Assembly: GCA_016867265.1 (NCBI GenBank)
Contig: VGJW01000003.1
Location: 1-64,000, forward strand
Source: Candidatus Tanganyikabacteria bacterium
GTDB lineage: Bacteria > Cyanobacteriota > Sericytochromatia > S15B-MN24 > VGJW01
Length of the DNA stretch: 64,000 nt
Reading direction: 5' to 3'
This document shows, piece after piece, positions 30,115 through 44,474 of this stretch. Under the pieces are notes generated by a model, which worked only from the letters and a program-made list of their open reading frames with translations, searched no databases and was not told the DNA's origin. The translations under genes and the position numbers were made by a program. Numbering within the stretch: position 1 is the first letter of the stretch; every line of letters starts with the position of its first letter.

Positions 30115-32057
30115 CGAGGGCGTCGTCCGGTGTGGGCGGTACTCGCTTGGGTAATCTCTGGCGCGAAGCCGACGGCCTGCACGACTTCATGAGCCGGGTG
30201 CTGCGCCAGCTCGGACAGGATCTGCATGACGGCGAAGTGGCCTTCATGGTGCGTGAGGACCCTTCCTTGCCATGGCGCGTCGCTGCGTCCCGCCCGGAGT
30301 GGGAGGCCCAGCTGACGATGGCGTCGATGGGAGGGCTGCTCGCCAACCTGCCGGATCAGGTGCTCGACCGCTGGCAAGCGATCGATCTCGACGTCGCGGC
30401 ACCCATGGCGGCGCGGCTGCTGACGCAAGGGGCTGCTCCCGGGCCGGCGGCGTGCGATGCGCTCGCCGCCGGAGTCTCGTTGGTCATCGCGCGGGATCGT
30501 CTCGCGCGGGCCGACAACGGCATCGGCGAGATAGGGCGTCTCGTGCATGCGCTGCGCCAGCTGGCGTCCAACATTCACCAGGCCGAGGACATCTCGCTCC
30601 TGGCCGAGGTCGTCTGCGCCTCCGTGGCCCGCGCGACCGGTGCCGAGGTCGTTGCCCTCTACCAGCTCGAGGGCGACGCCTTCCACTTGACCGAGGAAAT
30701 CGGCGTCCATCGCCCCGGTGCGCCGGGCATGGCCGAGGCCCTCGCGGCGGACCCGGAACCGCGCCTGCCCATCCCCCGCGATGAGGCCGGCTTCCTTGCC
30801 CAGGCCCTCTGGGAGGGACGACCGCTGGCCATTCCCAACATGGCCGCGTCCGAGGGTGCCAAGGTGGGCCTCGGGCATCTAGGCCTTCTCTCGGCCATGG
30901 CTGCCCCCCTGCTGACGCCCATCGACGACCTGGGTGTCCTGCTGGTCGGCAGCCGTGCCCCGCGCCTGTTCAGCCCGACAGAGCTGGGTGAGCTTGCCGA
31001 ACTTGCCCAGGCGGCGTCGGGTGCGCTGCTGACGTGGCGCCTTCATGCCCGGGCGCAGGAGGAGTCCCGCAAGGCAGGCGAGCTCATCGCGCGCCTGCAC
31101 GACCTGACGCGTGCGACGCGCGAGGTCGGCAAGACGCTCGAGGCGCGCCACGCCTGCGAGGCTTGCGTCCGCTTGCTGCCCCAGTTCCTGCGGCCGGCCG
31201 AGTGGGTGGATTGCTACCTCATCGGAGGCGACGACTGGCGGCTGTTGGCCGGCTCCAGCCCGCCGGATGCCCGTCCGCCGGAGTCCTGGTTGTACTATCT
31301 CGATCGTTCGGGGTATCCGCCCTCGCTGCGTCTCGAGGCCGATGCCCTCACGGGAACAGGCTTCGAGGACGCGGGCCAGGTCCTGTTGTTCCCGATGCGC
31401 ATGCAGCAGAGCCTGCTCGGTCTCGTGGTCGTGGCCACGGAGCGCGACCTCGCCATGACCGGTCGCGACATGGCCGAGACCCTGGTCGCGCACGCCGCAT
31501 CGGCGGTCTTCAATGCCGAGCAATGGCGCCGTGCGCACGAGGGCTCGATCACGGATGCGCTGACGGGCGTCTACAACCGCAGGCATTTCGTCGAGGTGTA
31601 CGAGCAGGAGCTGGCCAAGGCCGTCCGCTATCACCGGGAGTTCAGCGTCATCCTGCTCGACATCGACCATTTCAAGCACATCAACGACCGGCTCGGCCAT
31701 CTGGCGGGGGACCAGATCCTGCGGGAAGTGGCGAACCTGCTGCGGGACAGTGTCCGCAAGGTCGATCTCGTGGCCCGCTATGGCGGGGAAGAGTTTGCCC
31801 TGCTGCTGCCGGAGACCGGCGACGACGGCGCCTTGGCCCTGGCCGAGAAGCTCCGCCAGCGTTTCGGCACCTATCCGTTCAGCGACAGGGACCTGATGCC
31901 GGGCCGACAGGTCACGGCCAGTTTCGGGCATGCTTCCTTCGGCCTCGATGGCACGACGGCTGAACAGTTGTTGCAGACGGCGGACGAGGCGCTCTATTCG
32001 GCCAAGCGGGATGGGCGGAACCGGGTGGGGTCGCCACCGAGGAGATCGCAAGCGTGA
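30111..32057 (+). CDS. GAF-GGDEF diguanylate cyclase
   Basis: Makes cyclic di-GMP from two GTPs. The C-terminal domain has the active-site GGEEF (558-562) and the product-inhibition I-site RKVD (549-552), exactly five residues upstream. Other catalytic markers are DALTGVYNRRHF and VILLDIDHFKHIND. The region before it contains one clear GAF-like domain (about 155-300) and a second weaker one (about 335-480), so activity is likely controlled by a bound ligand. No membrane segment. Its ATG overlaps the stop of the MglA-like gene (ATGA), and its own stop overlaps the start of the following gene. Confidence 0.95.
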   Translation: MTRASSGVGGTRLGNLWREADGLHDFMSRVLRQLGQDLHDGEVAFMVREDPSLPWRVAASRPEWEAQLTMASMGGLLANLPDQVLDRWQAIDLDVAAPMAARLLTQGAAPGPAACDALAAGVSLVIARDRLARADNGIGEIGRLVHALRQLASNIHQAEDISLLAEVVCASVARATGAEVVALYQLEGDAFHLTEEIGVHRPGAPGMAEALAADPEPRLPIPRDEAGFLAQALWEGRPLAIPNMAASEGAKVGLGHLGLLSAMAAPLLTPIDDLGVLLVGSRAPRLFSPTELGELAELAQAASGALLTWRLHARAQEESRKAGELIARLHDLTRATREVGKTLEARHACEACVRLLPQFLRPAEWVDCYLIGGDDWRLLAGSSPPDARPPESWLYYLDRSGYPPSLRLEADALTGTGFEDAGQVLLFPMRMQQSLLGLVVVATERDLAMTGRDMAETLVAHAASAVFNAEQWRRAHEGSITDALTGVYNRRHFVEVYEQELAKAVRYHREFSVILLDIDHFKHINDRLGHLAGDQILREVANLLRDSVRKVDLVARYGGEEFALLLPETGDDGALALAEKLRQRFGTYPFSDRDLMPGRQVTASFGHASFGLDGTTAEQLLQTADEALYSAKRDGRNRVGSPPRRSQA

Positions 32058-32824: not shown

Positions 32825-33607
32825 TCAGGGGCGCAGCAGGCGCATCGTGACGATGCTGCCCTCGTAGAGCACCAGCAGGACGCCGGCCAGCATCACCTGG
32901 GACAGGACATCGGGCGAGGGCGAGAGCACCGCGCCCAGGATGAACGCCCCGAGGATGGCGGGGCGTCTGAATCCGGCCAATTGCCGCCACGTCAGGAAAC
33001 CGGCGAGTCCGAGCGCCACGAGGATCACGGGCAACTCGAAGACCACGCCCGTTGCGAAGAGGAACAGCGCGCAGAAGTCCAGCACGGAGGCGACGGTCAG
33101 CATCGGCACGATGCTTGTCGGGGTGAACGTGACGAGGAAGCGGAAGCCAATCGGCAGCAGGGCAAAGTAGGAAAAGGCCAGCCCTGCCGCGAAGAGCAGG
33201 ACGGCTCCAAGGGCGAGAGGCAGGGCCCAGCGCTGCTCGGCGGGCTTGAGCCCGGGCTTCACGAAGGCCATGGCCTGCCACAGGACGACGGGCAGGGCGA
33301 GCGTCAGGCCGCCGAGACCGGCCATGTGCAGCGTGGCAAGGAAGTATTCCGCAGGTCGGGTCGTGATGAGTTTGCCCAAGCCGCCCAGCGGTCCCTCCAC
33401 AGGCGCCAGTATCAGCGGGATCAGCCGATCATGGAGACCGAAGCAGAGCAGGAAACCCGCCACGATCGCCGCGACCGAAATCAGCAGGCGATGCCGCAAC
33501 TCCTCGAGATGCTCGACGGGATGCATCTCGCCGGGCTGCCGGCGAGGTTCGCTCGCCGCGGGCGAGGCAACAGCGGGTGATGGTGTCAGGGGCGCCTGAG
33601 GTTCCAC
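32825..33607 (-). CDS. tatC: Twin-arginine translocase subunit TatC
   Basis: Core of the Tat pathway, exporting folded proteins with twin-arginine signal peptides. Six membrane segments, the HLEELRHRLL cytoplasmic start of the domain, a conserved acidic loop, and the LSPSPDVLSQ signature before the last helices are clear. A Pro-rich stretch of about 25 residues precedes the core and overlaps the PilZ gene by 22 bases; ATG at 33526 (MHPVEHLEELR) is an alternative start without overlap. No tatA or tatB in the window. Confidence 0.95.
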   Translation of the reverse strand: MEPQAPLTPSPAVASPAASEPRRQPGEMHPVEHLEELRHRLLISVAAIVAGFLLCFGLHDRLIPLILAPVEGPLGGLGKLITTRPAEYFLATLHMAGLGGLTLALPVVLWQAMAFVKPGLKPAEQRWALPLALGAVLLFAAGLAFSYFALLPIGFRFLVTFTPTSIVPMLTVASVLDFCALFLFATGVVFELPVILVALGLAGFLTWRQLAGFRRPAILGAFILGAVLSPSPDVLSQVMLAGVLLVLYEGSIVTMRLLRP

Positions 33608-34215
33608 GACTGCCGAGATCCGTGTTTCTGGGGACGCATGTGGTTCATGATGCGCCTCATGCGTCCGGGACCGGAAGAGGGTTCGGCGAGAAAGCGGACG
33701 GCAAAGGTTTGGTGACCGACCTTGCGCAGGATGCGGACCCGCTCCTCGAGTGCCCCGTCCCGAAGCTCGAGGTTGACCGTGACGTCCTTGCCCACAGGCA
33801 GGGCAATCGGACTATGGATCAGCATGCCGCCGCTGCTGACATTGAGGGTGTGTCCCCTGGCGACGGCCCGGTCGAGGCGCAGGATGGCGGGCACCATGGC
33901 ATCAAGGCGCAGCGCCCCCCGCTGTTCACGCGTTGCCTCGGGTACCTGTCCGGGCAGCCGGTCCGCGTGGCCAATGTCCGGCAGCGGGATCCGGACTTCG
34001 AGGCGTTGGCGGGCGAGGACCAGAGGCGCCTCGACGATGCCGGTCTGGCCATTGGGCCACGTGATGACGAGGACATCCGGCATGTCCACGGGCACGGGCA
34101 GCGCCAGCGTGACCTGGTTGCCCACGAGGGCACGGACTTGGCCCCTGAGGAGAAGTGAGCCCCATTGCACGTGGACAGGCTGGCCGGCCTCGAGCCGACC
34201 TCCGGCTTCGGTCAC
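33586..34215 (-). CDS. PilZ-domain protein, c-di-GMP receptor
   Basis: A 209-residue protein with two beta-barrel-like parts. The C-terminal PilZ domain shows the c-di-GMP-binding pair: an Arg-rich RxxxR segment (EQRGALRLD, residues about 97-105) and the N-V-S-S-G-G motif (NxSxxG) further on. The N-terminal 90 residues resemble a YcgR-N-type module (LEAGQPVHVQW, VTLALPVPVDM). Probably a c-di-GMP receptor. It overlaps hpf by four bases (ATGA) and the start of tatC by 22, so hpf, pilZ and tatC form one transcription unit. A tail of about 20 basic residues is unique. Confidence 0.88.
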   Translation of the reverse strand: MTEAGGRLEAGQPVHVQWGSLLLRGQVRALVGNQVTLALPVPVDMPDVLVITWPNGQTGIVEAPLVLARQRLEVRIPLPDIGHADRLPGQVPEATREQRGALRLDAMVPAILRLDRAVARGHTLNVSSGGMLIHSPIALPVGKDVTVNLELRDGALEERVRILRKVGHQTFAVRFLAEPSSGPGRMRRIMNHMRPQKHGSRQSWNLRRP

Positions 34216-38794: not shown

Positions 38795-38890
38795 TGTTCT
38801 CCGGATAACGGAGGCAGGACCCCAGACGTGACTTTCCGCTCCGAAGCCTACCCCACCCCCGGCCTGTGCCGCACGGGGGGGCTGGACCGC

Positions 38891-39940
38891 GTGATTCGTG
38901 CGTCCCGTGCGTTCGTCGCTGCCCTCGTGGCCACTTTCGTTGCCGCGGGTTGCGGCGTCGCCCCCGTCGGGACCCGTGACGCGGACCGTCCGGCGGCCAC
39001 GTTGCCGGAAGTCCAGCCGGCCTTCGGCGGCCAAGGCCAGATGCTCGCGGGTGCGCCGGGTGGCGAGGCCTCTTGGCTGCGCCTTCAGGACGGGACCCAG
39101 ATGGTCGTCGTGGCCTCGGATCGTCCGGGCGATCGCCACCTGTCCTGGGCGTCGAGCGCCGACGGCAGGATCTGGACCTCGTTCGTGCCCTTCACATCCG
39201 GTGCCCTGACGGATGTCGAGCCCGTGCTCTTCGCGTCGGCCCGCGGTGTCGAGTGCGTCTTCGCGTCCAACCGCTGGCTCGCGACTTATGCGCTTTACCG
39301 GACCAGCTTCCGGGCTGGCCGCTGGTCTGAGCCCGTCCGCCTCGAGTTGGGCGTCGGCCCCCACCGCGCACCGGCCGTCGTTCGTGCGGGTGACCGCTGG
39401 CTGCTGGCGTGGCAGGGTCCCGAGGGTGTCAGCCTCTCGACCTCGGTCGATGGCGTGGTGTTCCCCCAAGGCCGCCTCCTGCTGGCCCAGCACGGCGATC
39501 CGGCGATTGCCGCCGTCGGCGATCGGGTCGTGGTCGTGGCCCACCAGCGGAAGGCACTCTTCTCCACCGCGCGCGACGCGGGTGTCTGGTCGACGCCTGT
39601 CCGCATTCCCTTGCCGGTCCCCGCCTGGTCCCCTGCCCTTTCGGCGGCCGCCAGCGACAGCGTCGCCCTTGCCTATGCCACGGCGCCCTCGGATCAGGTT
39701 GCCGCCGGACTCGGGCTGGCGCGCTGGTCGGAAGCGGGCTGGTCGGATCTCGGTCGCGCCGTCTCTTCTTCTGCCGATCTCGGGCAGCCGGCCTGGTGTG
39801 CCGGAGCCCAGGCACCCTTCTCCCTCCTGCTGGGTATGGAACTACCAAGTCTCCAGCAGGCCCTCGTCCGCGTGGTCTGGTCTTCCCTACCGGAGGGTGC
39901 CACGGCTTCGTTGCCTACCGGAGGTTCCGCAAAACCATGA
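38891..39940 (+). CDS. Lipoprotein with Asp-box-like repeats
   Basis: A 349-residue lipoprotein: basic start MIRASRAF, hydrophobic core, lipobox VAAGC (Cys21). The mature part has repeats resembling BNR/Asp-box units (SWASSADGRIWTSFVPF, SLSTSVDGVVFPQG) and strand-turn patterns of a six- or seven-bladed propeller. An upstream GTG at 38828 would add 21 residues before the signal peptide; the shorter start gives a normal n-region. The stop overlaps the ATG of the MshEN-C39 gene (ATGA at 39937-39940), so the two are translationally coupled and likely functionally linked. Ligand unknown. Confidence 0.85.
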   Translation: MIRASRAFVAALVATFVAAGCGVAPVGTRDADRPAATLPEVQPAFGGQGQMLAGAPGGEASWLRLQDGTQMVVVASDRPGDRHLSWASSADGRIWTSFVPFTSGALTDVEPVLFASARGVECVFASNRWLATYALYRTSFRAGRWSEPVRLELGVGPHRAPAVVRAGDRWLLAWQGPEGVSLSTSVDGVVFPQGRLLLAQHGDPAIAAVGDRVVVVAHQRKALFSTARDAGVWSTPVRIPLPVPAWSPALSAAASDSVALAYATAPSDQVAAGLGLARWSEAGWSDLGRAVSSSADLGQPAWCAGAQAPFSLLLGMELPSLQQALVRVVWSSLPEGATASLPTGGSAKP

Positions 39941-41259
39941 CCGCTACCATGACTGCCGACCGCCGCCGTCTGGGCGAGGTGTTGGTCTCGGGCCAATTCA
40001 TCACGGCTCAGGACCTCGACCGCGCGCTGTCCGAGCAGCAGGCGACCAACGAGCGCCTGGGCGAGGTCCTGGTGCGCCTCGGCATCCTGTCCGAGATGGA
40101 ATTGCACGCCGTGCTGGCCTATCAGGGCGTGGGTGACATGACCCCGGCCGAACGCGGTGCTGCCGTCCGCTACAAGCTGGGTGAGCTGTTGCTCAAGGCC
40201 CGTCGGGTCAGCAAGCCGCAGCTCGAGCAGGCCCTGGCCGAGCAGGAGCGAACGAATGAGCGCCTGGGCGAGGTCCTGGTGCGTCTCAACCTGATCTCGG
40301 CCACCGAACTGGATGCGGTGCTGACTTGGCAGGATGACCACTCCCGTCAAGGCGCCAAGGCCGTCCGTTTCGTGCTGGGCGAAGTGCTCGTGGCGTCCCG
40401 TGTCATCACCCGCGAACAGCTCGAGCAGGCCTTGGCCGAGCAGCAGCTCTCGCGCCGCCAGATTGGCGAGATCCTGGTCGAGGCCGGCTACGTCAAGCAG
40501 AACCAGATCCTCGAGGCCCTGCGCATCCAAGGCAAGCTCGTCGCGGCTTCGCTCATCGGGATCATCGGCGCGGCCGCGCTCACGGGCTGCGGCACCGGCG
40601 CCAGCCTGACGGGCATGAGCGTCTCAGGCTTGGCCGTCGACGCCAAGGGTAACCCGGTCGACAACCTCAACGGTTCCCGTATCCCCTACAGCACCATGGT
40701 CCGGGACGTGCGGACGGTTGCGGGGGTCCAGGCCACTCAGGACTTTGCCGATGGCACCCGCACCGTCAAGGACGTGCCCTGGTTCCACCAGGCTGCCGTC
40801 ACCAAGGACGGGTCGCCCGACAACACCTGTGCCCAGGCCGCCATGTCGAGCGTGCTCCACTACTGGCAGGGCGATGCGGCTCCCGGCTACCAGAAGGTGG
40901 TCAACGAGTCGAATTACTTCAACCTCGCCACGAACCAGGGCACCATCACCGAATACCTCAAGAAGAAGGGCCTTTCGGTCAAGGCCTACAAGAACGGCAG
41001 CGTCAACTATCTCAAGGGTGCCGTCGACGCCGGCAAACCCGTCATCTGCATGCTGCAGTTCGAGGTGCCCCATTACATCGTCGTCGTGGGTTACAACGAG
41101 GCGCAGGGCACGATCGTCTACCACGACTCGATCGATGGCCCCAACCAGACGCTCTCCGAGCGCAAGTTCCTCAAGCACTGGCACAACACGTCCATGAAGG
41201 ACATGCCCCTGTTAGGTGGCGGCAACTACGTCGGTCTGGCGATCGAGGCCTCCCGCTGA
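39937..41259 (+). CDS. Triple-MshEN c-di-GMP-type receptor fused to a C39-like peptidase
   Basis: A 440-residue fusion. Residues 9-198 hold six copies of a helical unit of the form RLGEVLVxxxxIxxxxLxxALxxQ, with the LGE at 12, 41, 81, 110, 147 and 176. The first, third and fifth pair with the second, fourth and sixth at 29-residue spacing, which is the c-di-GMP-binding MshEN (GspE-N) arrangement. R11, R40 and R109 keep the leading Arg; K80, V146 and Q175 do not. A hydrophobic stretch (about 200-217, ending LTGC) follows. Residues 278-440 match C39-type papain-like peptidases: Q285, C298 (NTCAQAAMSSVL), H379 (VPHYIVVVGY), D397. Coupled to the upstream lipoprotein. Confidence 0.85.
   Translation: MTATMTADRRRLGEVLVSGQFITAQDLDRALSEQQATNERLGEVLVRLGILSEMELHAVLAYQGVGDMTPAERGAAVRYKLGELLLKARRVSKPQLEQALAEQERTNERLGEVLVRLNLISATELDAVLTWQDDHSRQGAKAVRFVLGEVLVASRVITREQLEQALAEQQLSRRQIGEILVEAGYVKQNQILEALRIQGKLVAASLIGIIGAAALTGCGTGASLTGMSVSGLAVDAKGNPVDNLNGSRIPYSTMVRDVRTVAGVQATQDFADGTRTVKDVPWFHQAAVTKDGSPDNTCAQAAMSSVLHYWQGDAAPGYQKVVNESNYFNLATNQGTITEYLKKKGLSVKAYKNGSVNYLKGAVDAGKPVICMLQFEVPHYIVVVGYNEAQGTIVYHDSIDGPNQTLSERKFLKHWHNTSMKDMPLLGGGNYVGLAIEASR
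40051..40283 (+). repeat. Exact 26-base direct repeat within the MshEN region
   Basis: A 26-base block starting GAGCGCCTGGGCGAGG occurs at 40051-40076 and again at 40258-40283, 207 bases (69 codons) apart. It encodes ERLGEVLVR of MshEN units two and four. Identity at the DNA level points to a recent duplication of a whole MshEN pair. Confidence 0.85.
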
Positions 41260-41402: not shown

Positions 41403-41513
41403 CCTCGGACGGCCGTCGGACAAGGTCCGGCGGCCACGTTTCTTGGGTCAAACTTCAAGGTCTCTTTGCCTTTAGTTAAGAATGCCCGGCGGCCCGGGCA
41501 CGACAACCAAGAC

Positions 41514-42293
41514 ATGGAAGCCCTTGGTCTTCGTCTCTCCAACCGCCTGGCTCTCGTCTCCGGGGTGCTCGTCGCCCTGTTGGCCCTTGCCGGCTGCGGC
41601 CGTCCCGCAAGCACGACCGTCGTGCCCCGGACGCCTGTCACCCCGATGTTGCAGCCGATGCCCCAGCAGCCTGCGAACGGCCAAGATGGCGCCCGTATGG
41701 CGGCGGACGTCCGCGAACGTGTCGGGACGGCCTACCAGGGCGCCACGACGATTCAGGCGAGCCTCAAGTCCTACATCCACAACGTGCAGACGGGCAAGAC
41801 GGCCCGCTACGTGCTGGACAGCTGGTTCCAGAAGCCGGGGCGCTCCGCCTACAAGGTCCGCGAGGCTACCGAGGCGAGCACCATCGGGACCAAGATGATC
41901 GTCGATGGCACGGGCCAGGTCCAGGTCCGGACGAAGTTTGCGGGTTTCTGGGTCAACACCACGCTGCCCGAGACGGATGAGCGCACCCGCACGGCTCGTG
42001 GCGACGGCATGTCGGATACGGCCCTGCCCCGGATGATGCAGGTCTTGCTGGACTCGCAGGCTCAGGTGCAGTATCTGGGCCAGGCCCAGATGGCCGGGCG
42101 TCAGGTCGCGATGCTCGAGTTGCGCAGCGCGATGATGCTGCCCCGCGTCACCCACGAGCGCTATGCCATCGACATGGGGACCGGAATGCCGTACAGCCGC
42201 GAGTGCTATGAGGCCGGCAGGCTGACCTACCAGCTGACGATCGAGCAGGTCAGGCTCAACCAGCCGGATCCCGCGGCATTCCTTCTGCAGTGA
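41514..42293 (+). CDS. Predicted LolA-like lipoprotein
   Basis: A 259-residue lipoprotein with lipobox LALAGC. The mature part starts with a Pro-rich linker, then an arrangement of strands and one helix typical of LolA/outer-membrane-lipoprotein-sorting-like folds (SYIHNVQTGKTARYVLDSWFQ, TKMIVDGTGQVQVRTKFAGFW, YAIDMGTGMPYSRECYE). A precise family is not claimed. Start at ATG 41514 gives a normal signal peptide; the frame is open further upstream. The stop overlaps rsmG's start (GTGA). Confidence 0.8.
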   Translation: MEALGLRLSNRLALVSGVLVALLALAGCGRPASTTVVPRTPVTPMLQPMPQQPANGQDGARMAADVRERVGTAYQGATTIQASLKSYIHNVQTGKTARYVLDSWFQKPGRSAYKVREATEASTIGTKMIVDGTGQVQVRTKFAGFWVNTTLPETDERTRTARGDGMSDTALPRMMQVLLDSQAQVQYLGQAQMAGRQVAMLELRSAMMLPRVTHERYAIDMGTGMPYSRECYEAGRLTYQLTIEQVRLNQPDPAAFLLQ

Positions 42294-43541: not shown

Positions 43542-44474
43542 TTAGTTCATGCTCCAGGAGCGTGAAGCGGCCACCCGGCCGACGTTCTGTCTGAGGCGCT
43601 GGCCGATGGCCGGCTCCGCGGCGATCAGGCGTGCGTAGTCTTCCAGCAGGAAGACCAGGGCCTTACTCGGGGCGACGGCCGTCACGCTTGCGCTGCGCAT
43701 GGGCTTGGCCTGGATGAGGGCCGTCTCCCCCACGATCTGGTCGGGCCCCAGGCGGGCCAGCGGGAACGGCCGGCCATGCTGGACCACGGAGACCTCGAGC
43801 TGGCCTTCCATGATCAGCAGGAAACTTGTCGCCGGGTCACCGGCCTGGAACAGCTCGAGGCCTTCCGCGAGGGGCACGACCCGCGCCACGGACTCGAGCG
43901 CGAGGCGCTGCTCGTCGTTCAGTCCCGAGAAGACCGGGTGCCTGCGAATCCGATCGAGGCGCGCGGCACGCTCCTCCGAGATGCCCGTCGGTTTGGGCAG
44001 CACGAACTTCCCGGGCTTCGCCGCAGGAGCGGCCTCGGGCGGTCGTTCGGCTTCCTTCTTCGGCTGGGTGGCCCACTCCCGGGTTGCGACCACGCGCCCC
44101 AGATTGCCGCGCAGTGTCCGACCCAGCTTGGGGTTCTCGTCGCTCAGCAACCGGTAGCGCGCGTAGGTGAAGCGATAGAGCTTGGCGTCGGATACGGCCA
44201 CGACATCCGCCCGGCGGACATCGTCGTGCTGGATGAGCGGCATTTCGCCCACCAGTTGGCCCGGCGCGATGGTGGCGACAGCCATATCCTGGACCCGGAC
44301 CTCAAGGCGGCCCTCCACCAGCATGTAGAAGGAGTCAGCTTCGTCTCCGGCCCGGATCAGGTTCAGGCCAGCCTTGGCCGTCACACGCTCCGCGATGGCG
44401 AAGAGCGCGTCCAATTCGGCAGCAGACAGGCCCATGAATGCGGGCAGCGTCTGCAGGCGGGCGTGGTTGAGCAT
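43542..44474 (-). CDS. Protein with two cyclic-nucleotide-binding domains, no HTH
   Basis: A 310-residue protein with two cNMP-binding (CAP-type) beta-roll domains, about residues 1-130 (FMGLSAAELDALFAI, DSFYMLVEGRLEV, GEMPLIQHDD) and about 180-310 (VFSGLNDEQRLALESV, TSFLLIMEGQLEV, GETALIQAKPMRSASV). The linker is Pro/Lys-rich. No winged-helix follows, so this is not a CRP-like transcription factor; it probably acts as a signal receptor or regulates a partner. Start at ATG 44474 preceded by AGAGGA at nine bases. Confidence 0.88.
   Translation of the reverse strand: MLNHARLQTLPAFMGLSAAELDALFAIAERVTAKAGLNLIRAGDEADSFYMLVEGRLEVRVQDMAVATIAPGQLVGEMPLIQHDDVRRADVVAVSDAKLYRFTYARYRLLSDENPKLGRTLRGNLGRVVATREWATQPKKEAERPPEAAPAAKPGKFVLPKPTGISEERAARLDRIRRHPVFSGLNDEQRLALESVARVVPLAEGLELFQAGDPATSFLLIMEGQLEVSVVQHGRPFPLARLGPDQIVGETALIQAKPMRSASVTAVAPSKALVFLLEDYARLIAAEPAIGQRLRQNVGRVAASRSWSMN

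Follow-up and report, generated by a model that had tools for sequence, protein, structure and literature searches.

A predicted lipoprotein signal behind three MshEN modules in a C39-like peptidase gene of Candidatus Sericytochromatia

The window studied here is a stretch of 64,000 nucleotides from a Candidatus Tanganyikabacteria bacterium (contig VGJW01000003.1, positions 1 to 64,000). One of its genes raises the question of why modules of the kind that binds cyclic di-GMP (c-di-GMP) are encoded together with a peptidase predicted to work on the other side of the membrane. The first-pass annotation of this DNA had given the open reading frame, its strand and its coordinates correctly (39937-41259, plus strand, 440 amino acids), and had described three MshEN modules, a hydrophobic helix and a C39-like peptidase. 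We confirmed that the three modules and the peptidase lie in one open reading frame, where the modules indeed occur without an ATPase. The gene probably encodes a lipoprotein precursor in which, across the family, two to four c-di-GMP-type modules precede the signal. Our preferred reading, to which we give a probability of about one half, is that c-di-GMP binding in the cytoplasm controls the membrane insertion or the maturation of the extracytoplasmic peptidase. The parts of the gene are as follows:

39937..41259, plus strand: whole gene, predicted precursor of 440 residues (three MshEN modules, lipoprotein signal, C39-like peptidase), with full-length homologues in 15 of the 18 genomes of the class
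39967..40125, plus strand: MshEN_N module 1 (residues 11-63), NF053729 at 66.6 bits, both half-motifs fitting (R/K/L)LG...Q
40174..40332, plus strand: MshEN_N module 2 (residues 80-132), NF053729 at 58.9 bits, both half-motifs K/R-LG, both Gln retained
40372..40530, plus strand: MshEN_N module 3 (residues 146-198), NF053729 at 62.4 bits, leading residues variant, Gly, Leu and Gln invariant
40534..40590, plus strand: predicted internal lipoprotein signal with K200, an apolar h-region of 17 residues, the lipobox LTGC and the invariant C218
40591..40764, plus strand: tether from C218 to the peptidase (residues 219-276), poorly conserved (11-41% identity)
40765..41256, plus strand: C39-like peptidase domain of papain fold (residues 277-440), PF13529, with Q285, C298, H379 and D397
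40828-40830, 41071-41073 and 41125-41127, plus strand: codons of C298, H379 and D397, respectively

The MshEN modules were identified with the NCBIfam profile NF053729, which describes the MshE-related c-di-GMP motif over 53 positions and has a curated cut-off of 38 bits. Three stretches of the protein matched it (combined E=4.9e-48), and in the search of the genome each of them scored above the cut-off. The first-pass annotation had staked its case on significant MshEN matches, and all three pairs have one. It had also reported six units of 24 residues, arranged in pairs at an interval of 29 residues, and this geometry was recovered: the half-motifs begin at residues 11/40, 80/109 and 146/175, 29 apart within every pair, with LGE or IGE at the sites that it had named (12/41, 81/110 and 147/176). 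The profile that it had proposed for the check, PF05157, gave no match to the protein at E<=1, presumably because this Pfam model of 90 positions is longer than the N-subdomain of 53 residues, which is the sole part present. By sequence, the closest structures in the PDB were PilF (6f8l, 8.4e-12) and MshE (5htl, 4.7e-6). The N-subdomain of Vibrio cholerae MshE (62 residues) binds c-di-GMP on its own, at 0.35 uM (Wang et al. 2016, PMC5013675).

The residues that contact the ligand are largely preserved. In the window protein, modules 1 and 2 have the full set, (R/K/L)LG ... LxxxLxxQ, in both motifs, and the Gly and Gln that contact the ligand are present in all three modules. The homologues largely retain the Gly, Leu and Gln at the ligand site, and their modules are at least as conserved as the peptidase (identity of about 49-74% between direct orthologues, for 44-64% in the peptidase and 11-41% in the tether). 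The suggestion that pairs lacking a leading Arg may differ in binding strength is not warranted, as the extended MshEN consensus, drawn from Thermus PilF, allows R, K or L at this position (PMC11731258). The GSPII-B domain of that protein has Lys/Leu at the Arg site, yet is its tightest domain, with a c-di-GMP binding about 83-fold tighter (PMC11731258). Loss of the Arg therefore cannot be used to rank the modules.

The peptidase domain matched PF13529 (E=1.2e-10, 42.6 bits for a curated cut-off of 24), as did those of all ten homologues, and more weakly PF03412 (1.7e-6) and PF12385 (2.1e-6). In an alignment of ten homologues Q285, C298, H379 and D397 were invariant columns, which upholds the papain-like or C39-like assignment made from the letters alone, and the domain is predicted to be proteolytically active. 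It does not belong to the PA2778 family (NF033920), for which it scored 21.8 against a cut-off of 150. Structure prediction was supportive only. The AlphaFold models (six sequences) had mean predicted local distance difference test (pLDDT) values of 46.7 and 49.6, and were usable only over module 1 and a portion of the peptidase. With these weak models, Foldseek matched MshE and PilF at 1.1-1.9 A over 52-55 residues (probability up to 1.0) and, for the peptidase part, the C70, C39 and PCAT1 peptidase domains, in neither case with an E-value below 0.001.

The main feature lies between the two halves. The first-pass annotation had taken it for a single hydrophobic helix; it is a conserved lipoprotein signal rather than a plain transmembrane helix. 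In the window protein the segment reads K200-LVAASLIGIIGAAALTG-C218, and in every fused homologue it is closed by a lipobox ([LMV][TSAL][GAS]C), with the Cys corresponding to C218 invariant in 18 of 18. Among 95 internal hydrophobic segments taken from called genes in 20 neighbourhoods, 16 ended in a lipobox: all 14 segments of the family (whose members are not independent) and two of the 81 others. The homologues of the class that lack MshEN have an ordinary N-terminal lipoprotein signal, with residues after the Cys (CSPPVVP, CSTPIAP) like those of the fused proteins (CGTPTVP, CGSPRVP). Because the lipobox is found in all fused homologues and has this N-terminal counterpart, we regard the segment as a lipoprotein signal inside a protein. 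A position within about the first 40 residues, usual for such signals, is seen only in the MshEN-less homologues. Among the other MshEN proteins of the genome (G000) that we examined, none carried a lipobox. We also considered a short lipoprotein made from an internal start, and discarded it, as neither the window gene nor several orthologues offer an appropriate codon accompanied by a ribosome site.

The spacing between the signal and the modules that precede it is nearly fixed. In an alignment of the junction (last half-motif and signal, 15 members), only four columns were invariant, namely three residues of the MshEN ligand site (Gly, Leu and Gln) and the lipobox Cys, and the distance from this Gln to the Cys was 20 residues in 14 of the 15. 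The 15 residues on either side of the segment contain three to six Lys or Arg before it and none to two after it. This excess suggests that MshEN lies inside and the peptidase outside, on opposite sides of the membrane as first proposed, and the ordinary lipoprotein signals of the MshEN-less homologues agree with this predicted topology. The genome encodes one lspA and two lgt genes. The latter (G000:C12:4713-5501 and G000:C4:33524-34330) both exceed their family cut-off. Given the invariant lipobox Cys and the presence of LspA and Lgt, a cleavage between sensor and peptidase is to be expected, which leaves the earlier view of the two as one lasting chain unsupported as it was worded.

The fused gene is characteristic of the class Candidatus Sericytochromatia (S15B-MN24, UBA8530), a non-photosynthetic class that is sister to the photosynthetic cyanobacteria and known mainly from metagenomes. 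A search for proteins of this layout, also suggested by the first-pass annotation, recovered 18 fused genes across 15 of the 18 genomes of the class, in several families. The remaining three have a copy cut by the contig end (G001), only an MshEN-less homologue (G010), or none, in a genome that is 73% complete (G013). All ten genomes of the order gave a match. Besides the window, the fusion with the peptidase could be read in eight of them, once at a contig edge without module 1, and one copy ends with its contig within module 2. The number of modules ranges from two (G011, G009b) to four (G014, G016, G015a). When the whole junction was searched in 18 genomes, all 18 matching loci belonged to this family, and other MshEN proteins matched its MshEN half only. 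We found the fused gene in none of the 176 other genomes of the phylum. Two conserved peptides of the peptidase, searched in the genomes of 84,980 species, retrieved only members of the family, besides two weak peptidases from Aquificaceae. The architecture thus appears to be conserved in one class and was not found outside it. A tree of the family gave no polarity for the gain or loss of the modules.

Some relatives deserve mention in their own right. Proteins consisting of MshEN only are numerous in the class, and two are nearly pure repeats (L098:16183-18001 and G000:C2:182772-183449, L007; frames of 439 and 318 amino acids). One genome (G015) has two extra fused paralogues (L099:9121-10407 and L107:8825-10090), flanked by putative RND-type efflux and MerR-like genes, to judge by their sequence starts. 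The MshEN-less C39 lipoprotein gene adjoins a conserved gene for a lipoprotein in which LTxEQK-type stretches are repeated (L101:8138-9981 and L104:8386-10281), and which we presume to resemble Spy/CpxP.

Under our preferred reading, the three MshEN four-helix bundles would remain in the cytoplasm as a built-in c-di-GMP receptor. The last helix of the ligand site, which ends at Q198, would continue through K200 into the h-region of the signal. The chain would be inserted with its N-terminus in and its C-terminus out, C218 would be lipidated by Lgt, and LspA would cut ahead of this Cys. An MshEN stub anchored in the membrane would then remain inside, and the C39-like peptidase, lipidated and on a flexible tether, would end up outside. 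Occupancy by c-di-GMP, above all of module 3 beside the signal, may modulate insertion or processing, and with them the amount of peptidase deployed together with a co-encoded beta-propeller lipoprotein. In its strictest form, which we put forward tentatively and would not bet on, the signal is gated by the ligand: MshEN acts as a giant cytoplasmic n-region, and c-di-GMP directly decides on insertion and on the LspA cut, which would place lipoprotein maturation under the post-translational control of a second messenger.

Several points count against this reading. Module 3, the one next to the signal, is off consensus at both leading positions (V and Q in the window protein; V, M or L in motif I and Gln or Pro in motif II of the homologues). 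It retains the Gly, the second Leu and the Gln, and in its second motif Ile stands at the Leu of LG and at the first Leu of LxxxL. That one helix runs on from module 3 into the signal (residues 188 to about 213/214) is predicted with low confidence, from weak AlphaFold models. Peptidases of this type can function without the modules, since some members of the class have MshEN-less homologues. We know of no precedent for a ligand-binding extension of some 200 residues before a lipoprotein signal. The literature that we searched, open-licence papers in which absence is weak evidence, contained nothing on an "internal lipobox". Nor did it yield anything relevant that unites MshEN with a lipoprotein peptidase, in keeping with the remark of the first-pass annotation that no system of this layout was described.

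The strongest rival, although we consider it rather improbable, keeps receptor and protease in one chain. The signal would be an uncleaved anchor, perhaps lipidated at C218, with a helix that relays c-di-GMP binding to the outer peptidase, as if LapD and LapG were a single protein. LapD/LapG and DvhD/DvhG are established cases in which c-di-GMP controls periplasmic cysteine proteases from the inside out (PMC3032545, PMC3032553, PMC13090378), and the joint conservation of modules and peptidase in 15 of the 18 class genomes would fit it, as would the fixed spacing of 20 residues between the ligand-site Gln and the Cys. The invariant Cys in a good lipobox and the presence of LspA speak for cleavage instead, and the long, poorly conserved tether after the Cys would transmit a conformational change badly. 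The model could hold if LspA cut slowly or not at all.

If cleavage does occur, the gene may simply yield two products: a peptidase freed by LspA, and a stable membrane receptor with three MshEN modules that acts elsewhere, so that c-di-GMP would have no effect on the peptidase. We find this unlikely. The conserved lipobox and the strong constraint on the modules agree with it, and the many MshEN-only proteins of the genome suggest that such modules act alone as receptors, but it explains neither the nearly fixed distance between the ligand residue of module 3 and the cleavage site nor the restriction of the fusion to this peptidase. Still less probable is a role of MshEN as docking adaptors, for instance to parts of the type IV pilus or of type II secretion, that place the precursor with or without c-di-GMP. 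The best-known MshEN domains belong to ATPases of pili and secretion systems, and some, such as XpsE, have lost c-di-GMP binding (PMC5013675). Against this stand the ligand-contacting Gly and Gln, present in every module of the window protein, and neighbours that are not recognisable pilus genes. An artefact (a chance frame, a misassembly or a random fusion) is hardly credible given the same layout in 15 genomes of several families, the conserved neighbours and the E-value of the modules.

The gene is preceded by a partner and followed by a terminator-like element:

38828..39940, plus strand: upstream gene of a BNR/sialidase-like beta-propeller lipoprotein, start codon tentative
41411..41435, plus strand: terminator-like hairpin behind the two genes, of 11 pairs (9 of them G-C), by pattern match only

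The upstream gene and the main gene share an ATGA, in which the stop of the former overlaps the start of the latter. Such a gene was directly upstream and on the same strand in all seven genomes of the order where this could be seen, with a gap of -4 to +77 bp. BNR_2 matched five of the seven upstream proteins, the window's own copy being without a match, and most of the BNR-type proteins have a lipoprotein-like start. Beyond this gene lies thiL, on the opposite strand. Pattern matching found four terminator-like hairpins in the region, for 1.7 expected. The arrangement of the two genes is operon-like, and both products would be envelope proteins. Other families of the class have different neighbours beside the main gene.

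A third consecutive lipoprotein-like gene (41514-42293, plus strand), without a Pfam match, follows the main gene in the same family only. Two further genes lie within 10 kb of the main gene: a GGDEF protein (30132-32057, plus strand; domain at 31548-32024, E=8.9e-50), in a genome with seven GGDEF domains, and a PilZ protein (33586-34215, minus strand, 3.5e-10), whose gene and the adjoining HPF-like gene are conserved as neighbours in the order. A protein with two cyclic-nucleotide-binding domains (43542-44474, minus strand; PF00027, 2.2e-31) is encoded near the main gene also in G009.

If the preferred reading is true, this gene would be a minimal and testable route from a second messenger to surface proteolysis, with an unprecedented kind of signal-peptide n-region, and would give a handle on the surface biology of the Sericytochromatia. 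A surface peptidase with sensor modules ahead of its export signal suggests that internal c-di-GMP, the messenger for settling or swimming, may set when or where the enzyme is deployed. The main known route by which c-di-GMP controls events beyond the cytoplasm is a dedicated transmembrane relay such as LapD; in this gene the precursor of the enzyme itself would contain the receptor.

Each part of the protein has known relatives. MshE, Thermus PilF and NfrB have the same motif pair of 53 residues, and PilF also has three GSPII domains in series, but there MshEN/GSPII drives ATPases or glycosyltransferases. The MshEN partners given in the main text of the MshE study (PMC5013675) include REC, HD-GYP, CheA, CheX, cyclase and kinase, and no peptidase is named there. 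The C39-like peptidases (PF13529, NF033920, PCAT) share the papain-like fold and the Q/C/H/D residues; those of PCAT are cytosolic parts of ABC exporters, whereas the domain described here follows a lipoprotein signal and MshEN. Bacterial lipoproteins, the substrates of Lgt and LspA, have the same succession of basic residue, apolar h-region, lipobox and Cys, which in the window protein comes 200 residues in, behind ligand-binding domains. As a working comparison, LapD/LapG of Pseudomonas fluorescens and DvhD/DvhG of Desulfovibrio likewise tie cytoplasmic c-di-GMP sensing to an extracytoplasmic cysteine protease. They do so with two proteins, a degenerate GGDEF-EAL or HD-GYP sensor and a transglutaminase-like BTLCP protease. 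The window protein, with MshEN as its sensor and PF13529 as its protease, is not a member of LapD/LapG: it has no domain in common with either system, and would achieve a similar link from one gene, with a lipoprotein signal between MshEN sensors and a C39-like peptidase.
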